Below, piece by piece: positions 16,825-32,856 of a DNA stretch of 33,636 nt (position 1 is the first letter of the stretch; each line of letters opens with the position of its first letter). The notes beneath the pieces are model-generated. The model was not told the DNA's origin and made no database searches. It saw only the letters and a list, made by a program, of their open reading frames with translations. The position numbers were made by a program, and so were the translations under genes. The DNA is from Geopsychrobacter sp. (GTDB taxonomy: Bacteria; Desulfobacterota; Desulfuromonadia; Desulfuromonadales; Geopsychrobacteraceae), in the NCBI GenBank assembly GCA_012974425.1, contig JAAXQE010000022.1:1-33636 (forward strand), written 5' to 3'.

Positions 16825-18570
16825 TTACTTGGCGACCGCTTGTGCCCAGGCTGGAATCTCGCCGATGACCACATCGAAGACTGGAAAGACCAGCACATAG
16901 GTCACAACTATCACCATGACTATACCGATCAGGTTCAGCCCGAAGCCGCTTTTGGCCATCTGCGGGATGGTGACGTAACCGGAACCGAAGACGATGGCGT
17001 TCGGCGGGGTCGCGACCGGCAGCATGAAGGCACAGGAGGCCGCGATCGCCGCAGGCACTATAAGCAGGAGCGGACTCTGCCCCAGGCCGATGGCGACCGC
17101 CGACAATATCGGCATGACCATGGCACTGGTCGCGGTATTACTGGTCAGTTCGGTGAGGAAGATGATCAGGGTGGTAACGGCAAAGATCAGCAGCAAGGTC
17201 GGGGCGTTGGCCAAGAGACCAACCTGAGAACCGAGCCATTCGGCCAGACCGGTCGCCTTGAAGCCACTCGCCATCGACAAACCGCCACCGAACAGGATCA
17301 GCACCCCCCAAGGCATCTTCGAAGCCCAGTGCCAGTTCATGACAAATTCACTCTTTTTCATATTGATCGGAATCAAAAAGAGCACCAGCGCGCCGGTCAT
17401 GGCGATGGCAGCATCGGTCACCATTTTGGGATCTGGAAACATAAAACCGATATGCTTACGGAAAATCCAACCGAGAGCAGTCAAACCAAAGACCAGGGCC
17501 GTCCAGCGTTCTCCGCTGCCCATAGAACCCATATCTTTGAGTTCCTGAGTAATCAGAGCGCGACCGCCTGGTACCTTTTTCAGCTTCATCGGGTTGGCAA
17601 CCCGGGTCAACCAGAACCAGCAGAGCGGCAGCATCACTAGCACCAGCGGTACCCCAACCTTCATCCAGTCGACAAAGGAAATTTCATAGCCATAGGTCTT
17701 CTGCAGATAACCGGCAAGCACCGTATTGGGTGGAGTTCCGATCAAGGTGGCAACGCCCCCGATCGAGGCGGCATAGGCGATGCCAAGCATCAGGTTGAGG
17801 CCGAAGGCGAAATGCTCGGGCGAAAAATCGATCTCCTTGTCGAGACCCTCCTTCTTACCTTCTTCGATGACATGGCTGATAATGGCCAGACCGATCGGCA
17901 TCATCATGACCGTCGTTGCGGTATTCGAAACAAAGGCTGAGAGAACAGCAGTCGCCGCCATGAAACCGAGGATCAGGCGTCCGGGAGAGAACCCGATGGC
18001 CTTGACGATATTCATGGCGATGCGGCGATGCAGATTCCAGCGCTGCATCGACAGCGCAATAATAAAGCCCCCCATGAAGAGAAAGATCAGATGGTTGGCG
18101 TAGGGTGCCGTTGCCGCCTGGGTTTTCATGATCCCCAGTAACGGAAAGAGCGCGATCGGCAACAGGCTGGTTGCCGGGATCGGCATCGATTCGCACATCC
18201 ACCAGGTCGCCATCAACAGAGCGACAGCGGCCATCTTCTGCGCTGCCGGATCCATCCCCGCAGGCGTCGGCAAGAGCAGCATGGCGAAGAAGAGCAATGG
18301 ACCGAGGACCAGACCAAATTTCTGTCTCGCGGTGTAGTTGCGTGGCTCCCCTTCCTCAACGCCGCCTGGGGTGCCCTGAATACGCCCTGCGTGTTCAGCA
18401 GGAGCTTCTTCCATTTCATCGGCCAGATTAACATCCCGTTCGTTATGCGAGATGCTGTACGCAGTATTCTTGTTGCCTAGCAGTCGCTTTACCGCCTTGG
18501 GGGTAAAGCTGAAGAGTGATTTGGTTTCATCATGCATCGCCCAGAGGCGATTCCAGACAGCAGTCATCAT
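16825..18570 (-). CDS. SLC13/DASS-family sodium:carboxylate (or sulfate) symporter
   Basis: An inner-membrane secondary transporter of 581 residues that imports dicarboxylates such as succinate, fumarate or malate, or sulfate, with sodium. Two DASS/VcINDY-type signature loops are visible: FVSNTATTVMMMP in the first half and ELTSNTATSAMVMP in the second, each preceding the re-entrant/helix-break sites that bind Na+ and substrate carboxylates. About twelve hydrophobic segments run from residue ~85 to the end. The soluble N-terminal extension (about 80 residues, containing an acidic stretch) is longer than in typical 460-490-residue members. AAGGAG precedes the tandem ATG-ATG start. A sigma-54 promoter lies upstream and an NtrC-type system next door, which favours a carboxylate role. 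Confidence 0.9.
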   Translation of the reverse strand: MMTAVWNRLWAMHDETKSLFSFTPKAVKRLLGNKNTAYSISHNERDVNLADEMEEAPAEHAGRIQGTPGGVEEGEPRNYTARQKFGLVLGPLLFFAMLLLPTPAGMDPAAQKMAAVALLMATWWMCESMPIPATSLLPIALFPLLGIMKTQAATAPYANHLIFLFMGGFIIALSMQRWNLHRRIAMNIVKAIGFSPGRLILGFMAATAVLSAFVSNTATTVMMMPIGLAIISHVIEEGKKEGLDKEIDFSPEHFAFGLNLMLGIAYAASIGGVATLIGTPPNTVLAGYLQKTYGYEISFVDWMKVGVPLVLVMLPLCWFWLTRVANPMKLKKVPGGRALITQELKDMGSMGSGERWTALVFGLTALGWIFRKHIGFMFPDPKMVTDAAIAMTGALVLFLIPINMKKSEFVMNWHWASKMPWGVLILFGGGLSMASGFKATGLAEWLGSQVGLLANAPTLLLIFAVTTLIIFLTELTSNTATSAMVMPILSAVAIGLGQSPLLLIVPAAIAASCAFMLPVATPPNAIVFGSGYVTIPQMAKSGFGLNLIGIVMVIVVTYVLVFPVFDVVIGEIPAWAQAVAK

Positions 18571-25714: not shown

Positions 25715-25790
25715 AGTATTTTTTATTTGACAGTTCAGATTCGGGACCCTAGAATCATTACCCGGAAGGTCATCTTTTTTGCCCCTCTCA

Positions 25791-25818
25791 TTGACATTTG
25801 CCTCTTATATACTACAAT
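25791..25818 (+). promoter_or_regulatory. Sigma-70 promoter of the cbb3 operon
   Basis: A perfect TTGACA (25791-25796) and TACAAT (25813-25818) are separated by 16 bp, about 52 bp before the ccoN start codon. Transcription would begin near 25825. Confidence 0.65.
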
Positions 25819-25869: not shown

Positions 25870-27285
25870 ATGGAGAAGCCACAGTACAACACGGAGATTG
25901 TCAAAAGTTTCGTACACTGGAGTGTGCTCTGGGGGCTGGTTGCAGTCCTGGTCGGAGTTATCGTGTCGATTCAGATGACGAATCCGGAGATGAACTTTCC
26001 GCCCTACCTCACCTTCGGTCGCCTGCGGCCGATCCATACCAATGCCGGCATTTACGGATGGGGCGTCGGGGTCATCTTTGCGACCTTCTTCTACATCGTT
26101 CAGCGACTCTGCAAGGTTCGTCTCTGGAGCGACAAACTGGCGAGATTTCAGCTCTGGTTTTTCAACGCAACGATCAGCGCGGCGGCCTTAACCCTGCTTC
26201 TGGGCTTTACCACCAGCAAGGAATATCATGAGATGGAGTGGCCGATCGACCTGATGATCGTCATCCTCTGGGTTAGCTTTGCGATCAACATCATCATGAC
26301 CATCATCAAGCGTAAAGAGGAGCAGATGTATATCTCGCTCTGGTACATGATGGCTGCGATTGTCGGCGTGGCGATCCTCTTTTTGGTCAACTCGGCGGCT
26401 GTTCCAGTCTCGCTATTCAAATCCTATTCGGCCTTTGCCGGGACCAACGACGCCAACGTCCAGTGGTGGTTCGGGCACAACGCCGTAGCCATGGTCCTGA
26501 CGGCGCCTCCCCTGGCGATGTTCTACTATTTCCTGCCCAAATCGACCGGAGTACCGATCTACAGCCACAAGATTTCGATCATCTCCTTCTGGTCGCTGAT
26601 CTTCATGTACCTCTGGACCGGCGCTCATCACCTGCTCTGGACCCCGGTTCCGGACTGGATTCAAACCCTGGCCATGGCCTTCTCGGTGATGCTGATTGCG
26701 CCCTCATGGGGCTCGGTGATCAACGGCTATCTGTCGATGAAGGGAGAGTGGCACCAGATGCGCGAAAACTATCTGGTCAAGTTCCTGATCCTGGGCATCA
26801 CCTTCTACGGCCTGCAGACCCTGCAGGGTCCGATGCAGGCGATCCGTTCCTTTTCGGCCTTTATCCACTTCACCGACTGGGTTCCGGCCCACATCCACAT
26901 GGGCACCATGGGCTGGGTCTCGATGGTCTGTTTTGCGTCGATCTATTTCCTGGTCCCGAGAATTTACGGCAAGGAACTCTACAGCATCCCCCTGGCAAAC
27001 CTGCACTTCTGGCTGACACTGAGCGGGCAACTGATCTGGTCGATTTCACTCTGGGTTGCCGGCGTGCTGCAAGCGGGCATGTGGAATGCCATGAACTCTG
27101 ACGGCAGCCTGACCTACACCTTCATGGAGACCATGGTCGAGATGTATCCCTACTGGTGGGCTCGCACCACAGGCGGCGCGGTATTCACGCTGGGCGTCCT
27201 CGTTTTCATCTACAATCTCTTCAAGACTGTGCGTAGCGGCGAAAAAACCGCGCCCCTGACCGCTAGCTCTGAAGGGAGGGCCTAA
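25870..27285 (+). CDS. ccoN: cbb3-type cytochrome c oxidase subunit I
   Basis: Catalytic subunit of the high-affinity cbb3 oxygen reductase; 471 residues, about twelve TM helices. Heme and copper ligands are all visible: His55 in RPIHTNAG (low-spin heme b), His203 in WWFGHNAV (CuB), the pair His253-His254 in GAHHLLW (CuB) and His341/His343 in HIHMGTMGW (hemes b and b3). Tyr247 in FMYLWTGAHH is the candidate for the Tyr linked to a CuB ligand. AAGGAG precedes the ATG at 25870. It is the first gene of the oxidase operon, followed at a 3-bp gap by the ccoO fusion. Confidence 0.97.
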   Translation: MEKPQYNTEIVKSFVHWSVLWGLVAVLVGVIVSIQMTNPEMNFPPYLTFGRLRPIHTNAGIYGWGVGVIFATFFYIVQRLCKVRLWSDKLARFQLWFFNATISAAALTLLLGFTTSKEYHEMEWPIDLMIVILWVSFAINIIMTIIKRKEEQMYISLWYMMAAIVGVAILFLVNSAAVPVSLFKSYSAFAGTNDANVQWWFGHNAVAMVLTAPPLAMFYYFLPKSTGVPIYSHKISIISFWSLIFMYLWTGAHHLLWTPVPDWIQTLAMAFSVMLIAPSWGSVINGYLSMKGEWHQMRENYLVKFLILGITFYGLQTLQGPMQAIRSFSAFIHFTDWVPAHIHMGTMGWVSMVCFASIYFLVPRIYGKELYSIPLANLHFWLTLSGQLIWSISLWVAGVLQAGMWNAMNSDGSLTYTFMETMVEMYPYWWARTTGGAVFTLGVLVFIYNLFKTVRSGEKTAPLTASSEGRA

Positions 27286-27288
27286 GCC

Positions 27289-28170
27289 ATGTGGGAAAAG
27301 AGACCTATCCTTCTGCTGATCCTGGCCACCGCGGCCATTATGGTAGGAACCACTGTCACCATGATTGTGCCCTTCATGTCGGTTAATACCGACGCCGACA
27401 AGATCGCCAGCGTCATGCCCTACACCCCGTTACAACAGCAAGGGCGTGATCTCTACATCCGCGAGGGATGCAACAACTGCCACACCCAGACCGTACGCCC
27501 GTTGGTCAGCGAAGTGTTGCGCTACGGTGAGTATTCAAAATCTGGGGAATTCGTCTACGATCGCCCCTTCCTCTGGGGCTCCAAGCGGACCGGCCCGGAC
27601 CTGGCGCGCCTGGGGGGCAAGTATCCCGACGCCTGGCACTACAAGCACATGGATTCGCCACGTTCCATGATCCCGAGATCGAATATGCCGGACTATGCCT
27701 GGTACCGGGAGAACCCCCTCGATCCAAAGATGATCCAGCGCAAAATGGAGGTTCTGGACTTCCCCTATACGGCGGGACAGATCAGCGCCCTGGCCGACAA
27801 GAATGAGATGGACGCCATTGTTGCCTACCTGCAGAAACTTGGTAGCGATATCCCCTGGCGCAAGGCAGCAGAAACGACCATTGTCGGTGAGATTAGCAAT
27901 CCGTTTGCCGGGGCCACTCACGCCAAGATGGAAGCGTGGGAAATAATATACGAAAATAACTGCGCGGCCTGCCATGGCAAGCACCGCGAGGGCGACATCG
28001 GGCCGGAGTTGGTTGGTTCCAATTATGAAGATGAAGAGCTTTTCCGTATCATCTTTAACGGTATTCCCGATGGCGGGATGCCGGCCTTTAACAGTCTCGG
28101 CTCTGACAAGGTCTGGCAAGTCGTCACTTTCCTCAAGTATTACGATGAGGAAGAGGGGCATAAACAGTGA
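27289..28170 (+). CDS. ccoO: CcoO-type cytochrome c fused to a CcoP-like cytochrome c domain
   Basis: 293-residue membrane-anchored diheme cytochrome. Residues about 7-28 form the N-terminal TM anchor of CcoO. The first heme site is CNNCH (61-65) with the CcoO-typical TQTVRPL following, WGSKRTGPDL and axial Met in RSNMPDY (Met133). A second cytochrome c domain (about 212-290) has CAACH (225-229) and axial Met in GGMPAF (Met264), as in CcoP cytochromes. A classical CcoO ends near residue 200; here the extra monoheme domain is joined on. Classical CcoP carries two hemes; only one CcoP-like heme domain is present in this operon. Ends 1 nt into the next start codon (TGATG). Confidence 0.92.
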   Translation: MWEKRPILLLILATAAIMVGTTVTMIVPFMSVNTDADKIASVMPYTPLQQQGRDLYIREGCNNCHTQTVRPLVSEVLRYGEYSKSGEFVYDRPFLWGSKRTGPDLARLGGKYPDAWHYKHMDSPRSMIPRSNMPDYAWYRENPLDPKMIQRKMEVLDFPYTAGQISALADKNEMDAIVAYLQKLGSDIPWRKAAETTIVGEISNPFAGATHAKMEAWEIIYENNCAACHGKHREGDIGPELVGSNYEDEELFRIIFNGIPDGGMPAFNSLGSDKVWQVVTFLKYYDEEEGHKQ

Positions 28171-28310
28171 TGGACCTGGCTGCTACCCTCTATCTTGGCG
28201 TCACCTTCGGTCTCTTCGTGATCTTTGTCGGGATCGTTATGCGAACCTACAGCCGCAAAAACCGCGACAAGAACGAAACCGCCAAGTACCGTATGCTGGA
28301 TGATGACTGA
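28170..28310 (+). CDS. Small membrane protein, CcoQ-like (46 aa)
   Basis: MDLAATLYLGVTFGLFVIF begins a single TM helix (about residues 8-26), followed by a basic stretch (MRTYSRKNRDKN) and a tail ending KYRMLDDD. The position after CcoO, length and the GIV...YSRK pattern fit CcoQ/FixQ, a small stabilising subunit of cbb3 oxidases. The tail TAKYRMLDDD nearly duplicates that of the CcoS-like protein at the end of the operon (AAKYRMLEDDDD). A CcoS-derived duplicate is therefore an alternative. The ATG overlaps the ccoO stop by 1 nt. Confidence 0.72.
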   Translation: MDLAATLYLGVTFGLFVIFVGIVMRTYSRKNRDKNETAKYRMLDDD

Positions 28311-28346
28311 GTTGTGCAGCAACAGGCTTTTCAATAAGGGATTCTT

Positions 28347-28553
28347 ATGATCAATATAGATCAGCAGACTGACGAGCACGCCGATGGAATTAAGGACAGC
28401 CACCAACCGCCCCCGGTCTACTTCAATGTCCTGTTTTACGGTCTGATCATCTGGGGGGTGATCTTCATGGCTTATTTCCTGTTGAGTGGCTGGAGTTCTC
28501 ATCAGGAGTTTGAGCAGAAGATGGAGATCCACCAACAACAGATGGCGAAATAG
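28347..28553 (+). CDS. Stand-alone FixP_N-type membrane anchor (cbb3 accessory)
   Basis: 68 residues. The segment DEHADGIKDSHQPPPVYFNVLFYGLIIWGVIFMAYFLLSGW matches the N-terminal FixP_N domain of CcoP (HEYDGIxExDNPLPxWWxxxFYxTIxF pattern): a short soluble lead-in then one TM helix. The cytochrome c domains that normally follow in CcoP are absent and the protein ends in a charged helix (EFEQKMEIHQQQMAK). It appears to be the CcoP anchor as its own gene, while a cytochrome c domain sits fused to CcoO. AAGGG precedes the ATG. Confidence 0.75.
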   Translation: MINIDQQTDEHADGIKDSHQPPPVYFNVLFYGLIIWGVIFMAYFLLSGWSSHQEFEQKMEIHQQQMAK

Positions 28554-28562
28554 AGCTACTCC

Positions 28563-28583
28563 GGGGGGAGCCATGCTCCCCCC
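28563..28583 (+). terminator. GC-rich hairpin between oxidase and assembly genes
   Basis: GGGGGGAGC (28563-28571) pairs with GCTCCCCCC (28575-28583) across a 3-nt loop, followed by a C/T-rich run with five T (28593-28597). It could be a partial terminator reducing expression of ccoG-fixH-ccoI-ccoS relative to the oxidase subunits. Confidence 0.55.
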
Positions 28584-28604
28584 CCCTTTCACTTTTTGGT
28601 GACA

Positions 28605-29849
28605 ATGCAAAAAAAACGATTACTCGGGCCCTGGCGACGCAGCTTTCAATGGGCGATCAGCCTGTTGATCCTGCTGCTTCCCTGGGGAAGGATCGACGCT
28701 GTCGGCCTCCTGCGTATCGATATCCCATCCTTAAGCCTGCATCTCTTTGGTGCGACCCTAAGGATCGAAGAACTCTACCTTTTCCTTTTCTTCAGCCTGG
28801 CGCTCGTACTCTTTTTCTTACTGACGACCCTGAGCCTCGGCCGGGTCTGGTGCGGCTGGGCCTGTCCGCAAACAACCCTGAGTGAGCTTGCCGAATGGGC
28901 GGCGCGCAAGCTGAAACTAAAAATAATCAACAGCCAGATTCAAGGCGCGAGCGGTCGCAGATTTCTACTCCAGCTATTCTTCATCCTGCTGGCCTTACTG
29001 GTCGCCAGCAATCTGCTCTGGTACTTCATTGAACCTGCCACCTATTTCAGACAGCTGTTCAGCGGCCAACTCCATCCGGTGGCAGTCGGCACCCTGCTGA
29101 TTGTTGCAGCGGCCGTTTATCTCGACCTGGCTTTTTTGCGCCGTATTATCTGCCGTGATTTCTGCCCCTATGGCCGCTTCCAGACCGTCCTGATCGATAC
29201 CAGCACCCTCAGCTTGCAACTACCGCACTCTGAGGCGCCACGCTGTATAGATTGTGGGGCCTGCGTCCGCAGCTGCCCGATGCAGATCGATATTCGCCAG
29301 GGCTATCAGATCGAATGCATCAACTGCGGGCGCTGTCTGGATGCCTGCCGTAAGGTCATGCACAAACGGCAACAGGCCGGTCTGATCGGTTATTATTTTG
29401 GCAACGCTGGCAAAGGCTATCGGGCGCTGTTCAAGCCACAGAGTCTGCTGCTGGCGACAGGCTTCATTGGGTTGTTGATATTGCTGCTGTTTTCAGTAAA
29501 GATGCGCCCCGAGGCGACCCTGAAGGTCGCCCTCTCCCAACAGGTCGCGAGTCGCCGCCTTGCCGACGGTAACCAGGCCAGTTTCTTCAACGCCTGGATC
29601 AATAACCGTACAACAGCAAGGGCTGAGTATTCGCTTACCGCCAAATACCAGTCGGATGGTCAGAATTTGCAATTAAAAGGTCCTAGCCGGGAGATCGTCC
29701 TTGCGGGCGGCCAGAATCAGAGAGTCGATTTTGTCCTTGTCACCCCTTTTACCGGGCATGAAAGTCGGGTCCGCTTCATCCTCAGCAGTAGCGATGGCCG
29801 CCAGCTGGCTGAGAGCAACGCCCTAATCACCCCAAACCAAAGCAGGTAA
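28605..29849 (+). CDS. ccoG: Cytochrome c oxidase accessory protein CcoG (polyferredoxin)
   Basis: 414-residue inner-membrane iron-sulfur protein of the CcoG/RdxA/FixG family, implicated in reducing copper for cbb3 assembly. The membrane motif CGWACPQ is at about residues 83-89 (RVWCGWACPQTTL), and ICRDFCPYGRFQ lies near residue 192. Two ferredoxin-like clusters follow: CIDCGACVRSCP (Cys214, 217, 220, 224) and CINCGRCLDAC (Cys238, 241, 244, 248). A C-terminal Ig-like periplasmic domain ends the protein. I use the ATG at 28605; TTG or GTG codons a few positions earlier are possible. fixH follows after 1 nt. Confidence 0.93.
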   Translation: MQKKRLLGPWRRSFQWAISLLILLLPWGRIDAVGLLRIDIPSLSLHLFGATLRIEELYLFLFFSLALVLFFLLTTLSLGRVWCGWACPQTTLSELAEWAARKLKLKIINSQIQGASGRRFLLQLFFILLALLVASNLLWYFIEPATYFRQLFSGQLHPVAVGTLLIVAAAVYLDLAFLRRIICRDFCPYGRFQTVLIDTSTLSLQLPHSEAPRCIDCGACVRSCPMQIDIRQGYQIECINCGRCLDACRKVMHKRQQAGLIGYYFGNAGKGYRALFKPQSLLLATGFIGLLILLLFSVKMRPEATLKVALSQQVASRRLADGNQASFFNAWINNRTTARAEYSLTAKYQSDGQNLQLKGPSREIVLAGGQNQRVDFVLVTPFTGHESRVRFILSSSDGRQLAESNALITPNQSR

Positions 29850-29850
29850 T

Positions 29851-30309
29851 ATGGCTCCCATGAAACGCATAAGCCCCTATGTTCTGTTGATTATTACTCT
29901 GCTCTGCGCCTTTTTGCTCTTCTCAATCTGGTCGGCACGTCAGGCGGCGACCCGCGGCAGTCAGATTTCGGACCTCAACTACTACAGCAAGGGGCTTAAA
30001 TACAATAATACCCGTGTCGAAGAACGCGCTGCAGCCAGCCGTGGCTGGCGACTCGAGACCGCAATCAACAAGAAGACCTTAGTCTTCAAACTCTCCGACA
30101 GTGCAGGCCAACCGATAGCTCAGGCAACTGGCGAACTGACCCTGTTTCTGAGTGAGAAGAAGCGGGTGATTCGCCTGCAACCAACTGAAACAGAATCAGG
30201 CGTTTATCGTCTCATACTCCCCGAACAAATCAGCGGCAGTCTGCAGGCCCGCATAGAATTTGAGCAGCAGGGTGCGCGTGTCAGCCGGCAACTGCTGGTG
30301 AACCTCTAA
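29851..30309 (+). CDS. fixH: FixH/CcoH-family cbb3 assembly protein
   Basis: 152 residues. One N-terminal TM helix (about residues 9-27, YVLLIITLLCAFLLFSIW), then a periplasmic beta-rich FixH domain (NYYSKGLKYNNT, GWRLETAINKKTLVF, YRLILPE). The NYYxKGL-like stretch is typical of FixH. It assists CcoI-dependent copper insertion and oxidase maturation. Located between ccoG and ccoI with 1-nt gaps on both sides, the standard ccoGHIS order. Confidence 0.88.
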   Translation: MAPMKRISPYVLLIITLLCAFLLFSIWSARQAATRGSQISDLNYYSKGLKYNNTRVEERAAASRGWRLETAINKKTLVFKLSDSAGQPIAQATGELTLFLSEKKRVIRLQPTETESGVYRLILPEQISGSLQARIEFEQQGARVSRQLLVNL

Positions 30310-30310
30310 G

Positions 30311-32701
30311 ATGACCAAGGCCGAACAACAAGGCTGTGCTCACTGTGGCCTGCCGATCCCTACTGCCGAGCTGGTTACTGAAGTAGCTGCGGACCAGGAG
30401 TTTCGGTTCTGTTGTCGGGGATGCCGTGGGGCCTGGCTGATTATTCGCGGCGCGGGACTCGAAAGGTTCTATACGCGCACCGATCTTCAGCATGGGCCGA
30501 TCAGGGAGACTCACCCCCCCCAATTCGATGCCACCTATCTGCTCAACTTTGTCAGTACGAGTCCCGCCGGAGCCGAAATCAGCCTGATTATCGACGGCAT
30601 CCGCTGTGCCAGCTGCATCTGGCTGATCGAAAGGTATATGCAGCAGCTTCCGGGGGTTCTTGCGGCGCGGGTCAACTTCGCCACTCACCGCCTGCTCCTG
30701 CGCTTCGATGCAGATCTGGCCGAGATAGCAGATCTCTGCCGGATCCTGTCGCGCTTAGGCTACCTGCCCCGCCCCTACAGTCAGGATGAGCTGCGCAGTT
30801 CGATGGAGAACGAACGCCGCAGCCTGCTGCTCAGATTCGGGACTGCCGTCTTTCTCTCGATGCAATTGATGGGCTTCTCCATCGCCCTCTATGCTGGCTA
30901 TTTCAAAGGGATTGACCCGCAAACCCGACAATTGCTCCAGACCTTGGCGGCACTGGTCACGACCCCGGTGGTCTTCTATTCAGGCTTCCCGTTCTTACGT
31001 GGAGCCTGGTTCGCGCTACGCAATTTCTCACCGAATATGGATCTGTTGATCGCCATCGGCTCACTCAGCGCCTATGGCTACAGCATCTTTGCCCTGGTTA
31101 GTGGTCGTGAAGTCTATTTCGATACAGCCGCGATGATCGTCACCCTGATCCTGGCCGGACGCCTCTTCGAGAACAGCGCGCGCCATCGCGCCTCGGCCGG
31201 GTTGGATCGCCTGCTTCAGCTTTCACCGCCCATCGCCACCCGCCTGATTGATGGCCAATCAACTCGAGTCGATAGCCGCCTACTCGAACCTGGCGACCAT
31301 ATTCTGATAGCACCCGGCGACCGTTTTCCGGTTGATGGGTTGATCATTAGCGGTGATTCTGAAGTCGACGAGGCCGCAGTAAACGGCGAATCGCTGCCCG
31401 TTTTCCGGCAAACAGGAGATTCAGTGAAGGCCGGCACCCAGAACCTGAACGGCACCCTGTGCCTTCAGGTAGAAGCCAAGGCGGCCGATTCCTTTATCGC
31501 CCGTATCGGCCGCATGGTCGAACAGGCTCAAATCCGCAAGGCACCGATTCAGAATCTCGCCGACCGGATTTCCGGCATCTTCATCCCGAGCGTTCTCAGT
31601 ATTGCGGTTGCGACATTCCTCTACTGGGGAGCCGACCAGAACGGACTGCTCAACGCCATCACTGTCATGGTCGTCGCCTGTCCCTGCGCATTGGGTCTGG
31701 CGACTCCAACCGCTGTCATGGTTGCGACCGGACGTGCCGCTGAAGAGGGGGTACTCTTTCGCGGCGGCGATACCTTAGAGGCAGTCGCCAACCTCGATAT
31801 TCTCGCCTTTGACAAGACCGGAACCCTGACGGAAGGCCGCCCACAGGTGGTCGCTATCAAGGCGGTCAATGATCAAGCTGAATTGCTGCGCTGTGCGCTG
31901 CAACTCGAAACGGGCAGTCGACATCCGCTGGCAGAGGGGATCTGCAGCGAAATCCGCACGAGAGGGCTCAGCGCTCCTCAGCTTGAAAATATTCAGCAAA
32001 TCCCCGGCAAAGGGCTGCTGGCTCAGGCAGAGCAACTGATCGGCGGAAGTGCCGATTTTCTGTTGGAACAGGGGATCCCCGTTCCGGCAATCCAGGCAGA
32101 CACCACGACCAGTGAAGTCCATTTCGCCAAGGAGGGTCACTACCTGGGTTCTATCAGCCTGCAGGATATCGCGCGCAATGAAGCGGCAGAGGCCCTCTCT
32201 TTCTTAGACCAGCAGGGTTATTCCTGCCTGCTCCTTTCCGGAGATCGGCCGGGCAGTGTTGAAAATCTCGCCAAACATCTCGGCATTCAACGCTGGCTGG
32301 CACCCTTGACTCCCGAGTTAAAAACCCAAGAGGTAGAACGCCTGAAGGAGATGGGCCACAGGGTTTTGATGACGGGTGATGGGATCAACGACGCACCTGC
32401 CCTGGCCACCGCCACGGTCAGCTGTTCAATTGTCGGCAGCAGCGACATTGCGATGGAACAGGCAGACCTGCTCCTGACCCGCCCCAACCTGCTGCTGTTG
32501 CCCTGGGCGCTAGTCACTGCGCAAAAATCTATGTCGATCATCCGCCAGAATCTATTTTGGGCATTCAGCTATAACCTGATTGCCATTCCGCTGGCTGCCA
32601 GCGGCAACCTATTGCCGGTCTATGGCGCCGCAGCCATGGCCCTCAGTTCGATCGGGGTACTCCTTAATTCGCTCCGGCTAAAAAGGATTCCATCGCCATG
32701 A
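30311..32701 (+). CDS. ccoI: Copper-translocating P1B-type ATPase CcoI/FixI
   Basis: 796-residue copper exporter that feeds copper to the cbb3 active site. N-terminal metal-binding region with CAHC (residues 9-12) and CCRGC (34-38), then an HMA domain with CASC (99-102). Eight TM helices surround the CPC motif (457-459, VACPCALGLATPT). Catalytic DKTGTLTEG with phosphorylated Asp501, NGESLPV in the actuator domain, HP at 538-539 in the nucleotide domain, and GDGINDAPAL complete the machinery. All key residues are intact. Such ATPases with a CcoI N-terminus serve cbb3 assembly; a general copper-efflux role is less likely given the operon. The ccoS start overlaps the stop (ATGA). Confidence 0.96.
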   Translation: MTKAEQQGCAHCGLPIPTAELVTEVAADQEFRFCCRGCRGAWLIIRGAGLERFYTRTDLQHGPIRETHPPQFDATYLLNFVSTSPAGAEISLIIDGIRCASCIWLIERYMQQLPGVLAARVNFATHRLLLRFDADLAEIADLCRILSRLGYLPRPYSQDELRSSMENERRSLLLRFGTAVFLSMQLMGFSIALYAGYFKGIDPQTRQLLQTLAALVTTPVVFYSGFPFLRGAWFALRNFSPNMDLLIAIGSLSAYGYSIFALVSGREVYFDTAAMIVTLILAGRLFENSARHRASAGLDRLLQLSPPIATRLIDGQSTRVDSRLLEPGDHILIAPGDRFPVDGLIISGDSEVDEAAVNGESLPVFRQTGDSVKAGTQNLNGTLCLQVEAKAADSFIARIGRMVEQAQIRKAPIQNLADRISGIFIPSVLSIAVATFLYWGADQNGLLNAITVMVVACPCALGLATPTAVMVATGRAAEEGVLFRGGDTLEAVANLDILAFDKTGTLTEGRPQVVAIKAVNDQAELLRCALQLETGSRHPLAEGICSEIRTRGLSAPQLENIQQIPGKGLLAQAEQLIGGSADFLLEQGIPVPAIQADTTTSEVHFAKEGHYLGSISLQDIARNEAAEALSFLDQQGYSCLLLSGDRPGSVENLAKHLGIQRWLAPLTPELKTQEVERLKEMGHRVLMTGDGINDAPALATATVSCSIVGSSDIAMEQADLLLTRPNLLLLPWALVTAQKSMSIIRQNLFWAFSYNLIAIPLAASGNLLPVYGAAAMALSSIGVLLNSLRLKRIPSP

Positions 32702-32856
32702 TGACCACCATCCTGCTTCTGATCTTCCTTTCATTCTGCATCGGCACAGGCGTCTGGCTCTTCTTTATCTACGCGGTAAAAAAAGGGGAATTTGATGACA
32801 TCGAAGCCGCAAAATACCGCATGCTTGAGGACGACGATGATGAACCACGCGAGTAG
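32698..32856 (+). CDS. ccoS: CcoS-type cbb3 maturation protein (52 aa)
   Basis: Single TM helix (about residues 4-26, LLLIFLSFCIGTGVWLFFIYAV) then KKGEFDDIEAAKYRMLEDDDDEPRE. The FDDxExxxxRxLxDDD tail is the recognisable CcoS pattern. CcoS is needed for cofactor insertion into cbb3 oxidase. Starts 4 nt inside the ccoI stop (ATGA). Its tail resembles that of the CcoQ-like protein earlier in the operon. Confidence 0.88.
   Translation: MMTTILLLIFLSFCIGTGVWLFFIYAVKKGEFDDIEAAKYRMLEDDDDEPRE

Follow-up and report, generated by a model that had tools for sequence, protein, structure and literature searches.

The 33,636-nucleotide stretch of Geopsychrobacter sp. DNA analysed here (the window) contains, as judged from its sequence, a complete operon for an oxygen reductase of the cbb3 type (C-family). 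CcoP is represented there by a 68-aa transmembrane anchor without heme, while CcoO carries a second cytochrome c domain at its C-terminus. Our preferred reading, which we consider likely, is that CcoP lost its hemes, that its anchor was kept for assembly and stability, and that the extra heme of CcoO, which is not of CcoP type, would serve as the point of electron entry.

A cbb3 operon with a heme-free CcoP anchor

Profile searches and reading of the open reading frames gave the gene order ccoNO*QP'-GHIS on the + strand, of which the N-O-Q-P part corresponds to the canonical ccoNOQP order. Catalytic subunit I is encoded by ccoN (25870..27285), which matched PF00115 with 357 bits; TIGR00780 (residues 5-461) was its best ccoN-only model, yet the score of 544.7 bits lies below the equivalog cut-off of 583.15. 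The CcoN-type catalytic subunit by which a cbb3 (C-family) oxygen reductase is recognised is thereby present. It is followed by the fused ccoO (27289..28170; 293 aa; PF02433, PF13442 and NF011054), by ccoQ (28170..28310; PF05545 33.7 bits, cut-off 29) and by the anchor gene (28347..28553), which sits after ccoQ as CcoP does in canonical operons. The ccoGHIS assembly genes adjoin the oxidase genes: ccoG (28596..29849; Fer4_18 82.8 bits, and TIGR02745 252 bits, under the NCBIfam cut-off of 316.7), ccoH (29851..30309; PF05751 FixH 63.8 bits), ccoI for a copper P-type ATPase (30311..32701; TIGR01511/TIGR01525, PF12156, PF00403) and ccoS (32698..32856; TIGR00847 33.2 bits, cut-off 28.35; PF03597 50.3 bits). 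A DsbD-type membrane protein is encoded from after ccoS to the end of the window. The C-termini of CcoQ and CcoS have a motif in common (KYRMLDDD in CcoQ, KYRMLEDDDD in CcoS); that of CcoQ was found again across relatives.

Two tandem sigma-70-like promoters were seen upstream of ccoN (25727-25755 and 25791-25818; 11/12 matches each), the total of such sites being not above chance. No FNR-type box was found upstream of ccoN at two mismatches; a perfect FNR-type palindrome, TTGATCGGAATCAA, at 17363-17376 lies within a sodium:sulfate symporter-type gene and is probably due to chance. In the gap between the anchor gene and ccoG we read a G/C-rich hairpin followed by a T-rich tract (28560..28590, + strand) of the type GGGGGGAGC..GCTCCCCCC, and a hairpin with T-rich tail recurs at this place in several genus members. 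It may lower read-through into the assembly genes; since a pattern scan of the + strand did not report it, a terminator function is put forward here as a suggestion.

An earlier reading of the window from its letters alone (the sequence-only reading) had described the 68-aa product as a FixP_N-like anchor without heme motif, encoded separately two genes after ccoO, and had proposed comparison with the FixP_N profile. That comparison bears the description out: the protein scored 31.5 bits against FixP_N PF14715 (cut-off 24.9, E 1.5e-7). It has no CXXCH, and reached 17.3 bits against the CcoP model TIGR00782, the cut-off of which is 179.95. Its best matches among solved structures, all weak, were the CcoP chains 3mk7_C, 9g83_v and 6xkw_p, with alignments covering the region of the DGI...P..W motif, and it aligned with the anchor part of the one-heme CcoP of relatives. 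The protein is accordingly assigned as a CcoP-derived anchor and not as a CcoP cytochrome.

The CcoO subunit carries a second cytochrome c domain

Residues 2-167 of CcoO matched FixO PF02433 (247.7 bits; TIGR00781 202.2 bits, cut-off 200.65), and residues 215-282 matched the cytochrome c domain PF13442 (66 bits), in agreement with the second CXXCH domain noted in the sequence-only reading. The two CXXCH motifs are C61-H65 and C225-H229; all their Cys and His residues, as well as M264, were invariant in 57 homologues. Against NF011054 the protein aligned end to end with 397.1 bits, short of the curated cut-off of 447, and it has the architecture of that model, i.e. FixO plus one C-terminal cytochrome c domain in about 294 aa. 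A structure model of CcoO alone, outside the complex, was obtained with AlphaFold; the mean pLDDT was 78.6 with the alignment of 57 homologues and 37 without alignment. Foldseek returned CcoO 3mk7_B as the best match to this model, as well as small cytochromes c, and no CcoP chain was present among the 50 best matches. The matches included PDB 9g6b, titled 'cbb3-2 NOH complex'; judging from this title, it seems possible to isolate a cbb3 core that has CcoH and lacks CcoP, which bears on the idea of a scaffold.

FixO proteins were found in 130 of the 277 genomes of the window's class. Nearly all open reading frames around strong FixO matches measured approximately 290-350 aa, i.e. were fused, and nearly all strong matches that were read out contained two CXXCH. 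NCBIfam already catalogues the fusion of CcoO to cytochrome c, and within this class the fusion is close to universal. An exception is the class member G477 (L136), which encodes an unfused one-heme CcoO of 192 aa together with a one-heme CcoP, an arrangement that may represent another route to an enzyme with two c hemes.

Distribution of heme-free anchors

The gene after ccoQ was read in more than 100 operons. The survey of relatives that the sequence-only reading had called for gave a divided answer: the heme-free anchor recurs, in approximately 25 genomes overall, and most relatives keep one CcoP-type heme, their gene encoding FixP_N plus one heme domain in approximately 150-190 aa. In the window's genus seven members were readable: six (G000, G312, G315-G318) had FixP_N alone, and the seventh, G313, had retained the heme. 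The bare anchor was also present in G330 (of the window's family), G095, the metagenome-assembled genome MB1D_Bin_5, and G424, whose genus-mate G425 retains the heme. Divergent cbb3 operons that encode a heme-free anchor of 60 aa and a CcoO of approximately 300 aa with two hemes were read in G470 (L116), where the operon is a second copy, and in G534 (L121); on the CcoO tree both lie far off the main group. In the class to which G195 belongs (Desulfurivibrio and other Desulfobulbia-type bacteria), 243 genomes were sampled, of which 15 contained the anchor, heme-free in all 15 (one match ends at a contig end); loci that include CcoO all had it fused with at least two CXXCH, one frame having three. 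In every case where CcoO was read, a heme-free anchor went together with a fused CcoO containing two or more CXXCH. Among cultivated species, Desulfurivibrio sp. AMeS2 (L177) has the heme-free anchor. A different expansion was seen in G397 (L105, 1138-1983), where CcoP consists of FixP_N plus two heme domains, both of the one-heme type; this looks like an internal duplication and, with a fused CcoO, would give four c hemes.

On the CcoO trees the heme state needs approximately 7-9 changes by parsimony, while well-supported branches force only two. A single origin of heme-free anchors was rejected by the AU test (p 0.035 with 59 rows; p 0.009 with 71 rows, after addition of the Desulfobulbia-type genomes). 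Because certain sequences of the Desulfobulbia type are intermingled with Desulfuromonadia ones on the tree, horizontal transfer of the operon between lineages may explain part of the scatter, and the number of events is uncertain.

Probable loss of the CcoP heme domain rather than relocation

The window genome, 99.8% complete in a 327-contig assembly, contained one FixP_N above cut-off and one FixO. The profile search of this genome recovered no other FixP_N or CcoP above cut-off, so that the full-length ccoP elsewhere that would have spoken against the sequence-only reading was not encountered. A profile of the anchored heme domain was then run on 12 genomes, four heme-bearing and eight heme-free. 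Scores in the heme-bearing group were 109-129 bits; in the heme-free group, which includes the single-contig G312, none was above 47 bits, and the best match in each of these eight genomes was CcoO's own domain. Relocation of the CcoP heme domain to another place in the genome was rejected on the basis of these searches.

A missing heme domain could be replaced by heme supplied in trans, with a soluble or multiheme cytochrome docking on the anchor or at the vacated CcoP site and at least three c hemes in the working enzyme. Periplasmic cytochromes are in general abundant in this bacterial group. Contig 82 of G000 encodes a Rieske protein, cytochrome b and a protein of 277 aa containing five CXXCH (L223); a subunit of molybdopterin type and a further multiheme cytochrome (L011) lie on the same contig, and other small cytochromes are present in the genome. 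With a genome devoid of a CcoP-type heme domain and an operon devoid of an extra cytochrome gene, we nevertheless regard supply in trans as unlikely.

The sequence-only reading had proposed a split of CcoP in which one heme domain passed to the C-terminal end of CcoO and the anchor stayed behind. Both pieces do lie in one operon, and the C-terminal domain of CcoO matches the Pfam family 'Cytochrome_CBB3' (PF13442); however, this profile covers cytochromes c in general and matches the anchored domain of relatives as well. Comparison of the C-terminal half of the fusion with CcoP, as the same reading had suggested, went against a transfer: on TIGR00782 the relatives' anchored domain scored 64.8 and 55.5 bits and the CcoO domain only 17.6-18.9. 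With HMMs built from canonical CcoP sequences, the anchored domain reached 51-65 bits on CcoP heme domain 1, whereas the CcoO domain reached 13-38 bits on heme domains 1 and 2; its best match among small cytochromes was c551, with 48 bits. Derivation of the extra CcoO domain from CcoP is thus disfavoured. Moreover, relatives have both the fused CcoO and the anchored heme, so the fusion would predate the heme loss. We therefore hold a split with transfer to be improbable.

Given that the anchored domain is of CcoP type and is absent from the heme-free genomes, the state in the window is best read as a fusion that came first and a subsequent deletion of the heme domain of CcoP. This domain would accordingly have been lost, not relocated, a direction deduced from the resemblance of the relatives' domain to CcoP. 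As the CcoP heme domain is gone and the extra CcoO domain is not CcoP-like, the operon is predicted to encode two c hemes, both on CcoO, and not three. The heme count of the sequence-only reading is thereby retained at the level of what the operon encodes, and its account of how that count arose is not.

The heme-free anchor is under purifying selection

Within the genus, the anchor showed pN values of 0.08-0.16 against pS values of 0.54-1.0. In an alignment that spans the window's genus, Desulfurivibrio and sequences of Geobacter type, 17 columns were invariant, and invariant residues occur in the stretch DGI...P...LF.GL..W...F....L..GWSS. Taken from these comparisons, the heme-free anchor is real and under purifying selection, and pN/pS together with the invariant columns indicate that it is functional. 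In full-text searches we found no description of a heme-free CcoP, although older key papers might mention one; the heme-free anchor appears to be undescribed so far.

Were the 68-aa frame instead a decaying, functionless remnant, the complex would effectively be CcoNO(Q). Several losses on the tree and the functionality of CcoNO alone in other bacteria (PMC5697931) are compatible with this, but strong purifying selection with saturated synonymous sites, retention of the anchor through the whole class-level sample and the invariant residues in the DGI...GWSS stretch make decay very improbable. An artefact of assembly or a frameshift in a longer gene, conceivable for a window from a 327-contig assembly, has a negligible chance of being correct, as the architecture is repeated in five congeners (including a single-contig genome of 4.24 Mb) and in independent Desulfobulbia-type genomes, an intact ccoG starts approximately 43 bases past the anchor frame, and neither a CXXCH in any of the three forward frames of the next 600 bases nor a remnant of a heme domain downstream was found.

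Proposed electron path

In model cbb3 oxidases, cytochrome c hands electrons to CcoP heme cp2, from which they travel via cp1, the heme of CcoO and heme b to b3-CuB (PMC7876108). The smallest unit that functions is CcoNO (PMC5697931); CcoQ stabilises CcoP, and CcoH binds CcoP via its transmembrane domain (PMC8267372). On these grounds we propose that the anchor is a helix for docking and assembly, with the second heme of CcoO as the entry point. Under this proposal a periplasmic donor would most likely deliver electrons at the C-terminal heme of CcoO, from where they would pass to CcoO's own heme, to heme b and to b3-CuB in CcoN. The anchor would probably contact CcoN, CcoQ and CcoH and probably have no role in electron transfer. 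With its Rieske protein, cytochrome b and multiheme cytochrome, contig 82 encodes a quinol-cytochrome c reductase that could feed the donor.

An extension of this proposal, to which we give little weight, is that heme-free CcoP with diheme CcoO constitutes a cbb3 subtype of its own that evolved repeatedly, loss of the CcoP heme arm letting a different donor dock on CcoO. If true, CcoO might be docked directly by, for instance, the periplasmic multiheme network used in metal or electrode respiration.

A conserved enzyme with an anchor-only CcoP would separate the structural from the electron-transfer role of this subunit and offer a natural test of which hemes are required; loss of the CcoP hemes would make the electron chain of cbb3 shorter. 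Genome papers on this group that score 'ccoP, diheme subunit' (PMC8235581, on Desulfuromonas, is an example) can miscount hemes, as the number of CcoP hemes is one in most of the relatives examined and mostly zero in the window's genus.

Comparison with known systems

What appears to be new is the heme-free anchor variant, the CcoO fusion and natural change in CcoP heme number (Neisseria, PMC2924362) being known. Among the nearest systems are those of Desulfuromonadia relatives with a one-heme CcoP, such as Pelovirga terrestris (L170), Geothermobacter hydrogeniphilus (L149) and Citrifermentans bremense (L193), which share the locus, a FixP_N anchor ending in GWSS and the fused CcoO with the window; unlike the window, they retain a CcoP-type heme domain, so that three c hemes are encoded. 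The bifunctional CcoO/cytochrome c of NF011054 has the same domain order and nearly the same length (294 vs 293 aa), but the window CcoO scores outside this strict equivalog, and the model is silent on CcoP. The order N-O-Q-P, the FixP_N anchor and the downstream cco assembly genes are found likewise in Shewanella baltica pSbal01 and in Rhizobium fixNOQP; whereas canonical ccoNOQP combines a monoheme CcoO with a diheme CcoP, the window combines a diheme CcoO with a heme-free CcoP. Fusion of cbb3 subunits is also known from the Bacteroidetes/Chlorobi-type CcoNO (Melioribacter, PMC3534657; NF011053), which differs from the window in joining subunits I and II. In Neisseria, natural, lineage-specific change in the number of CcoP heme domains has a functional effect; there a third domain was gained and then lost, resulting in a diheme CcoP (PMC2924362), whereas in the window the number of CcoP hemes is zero.
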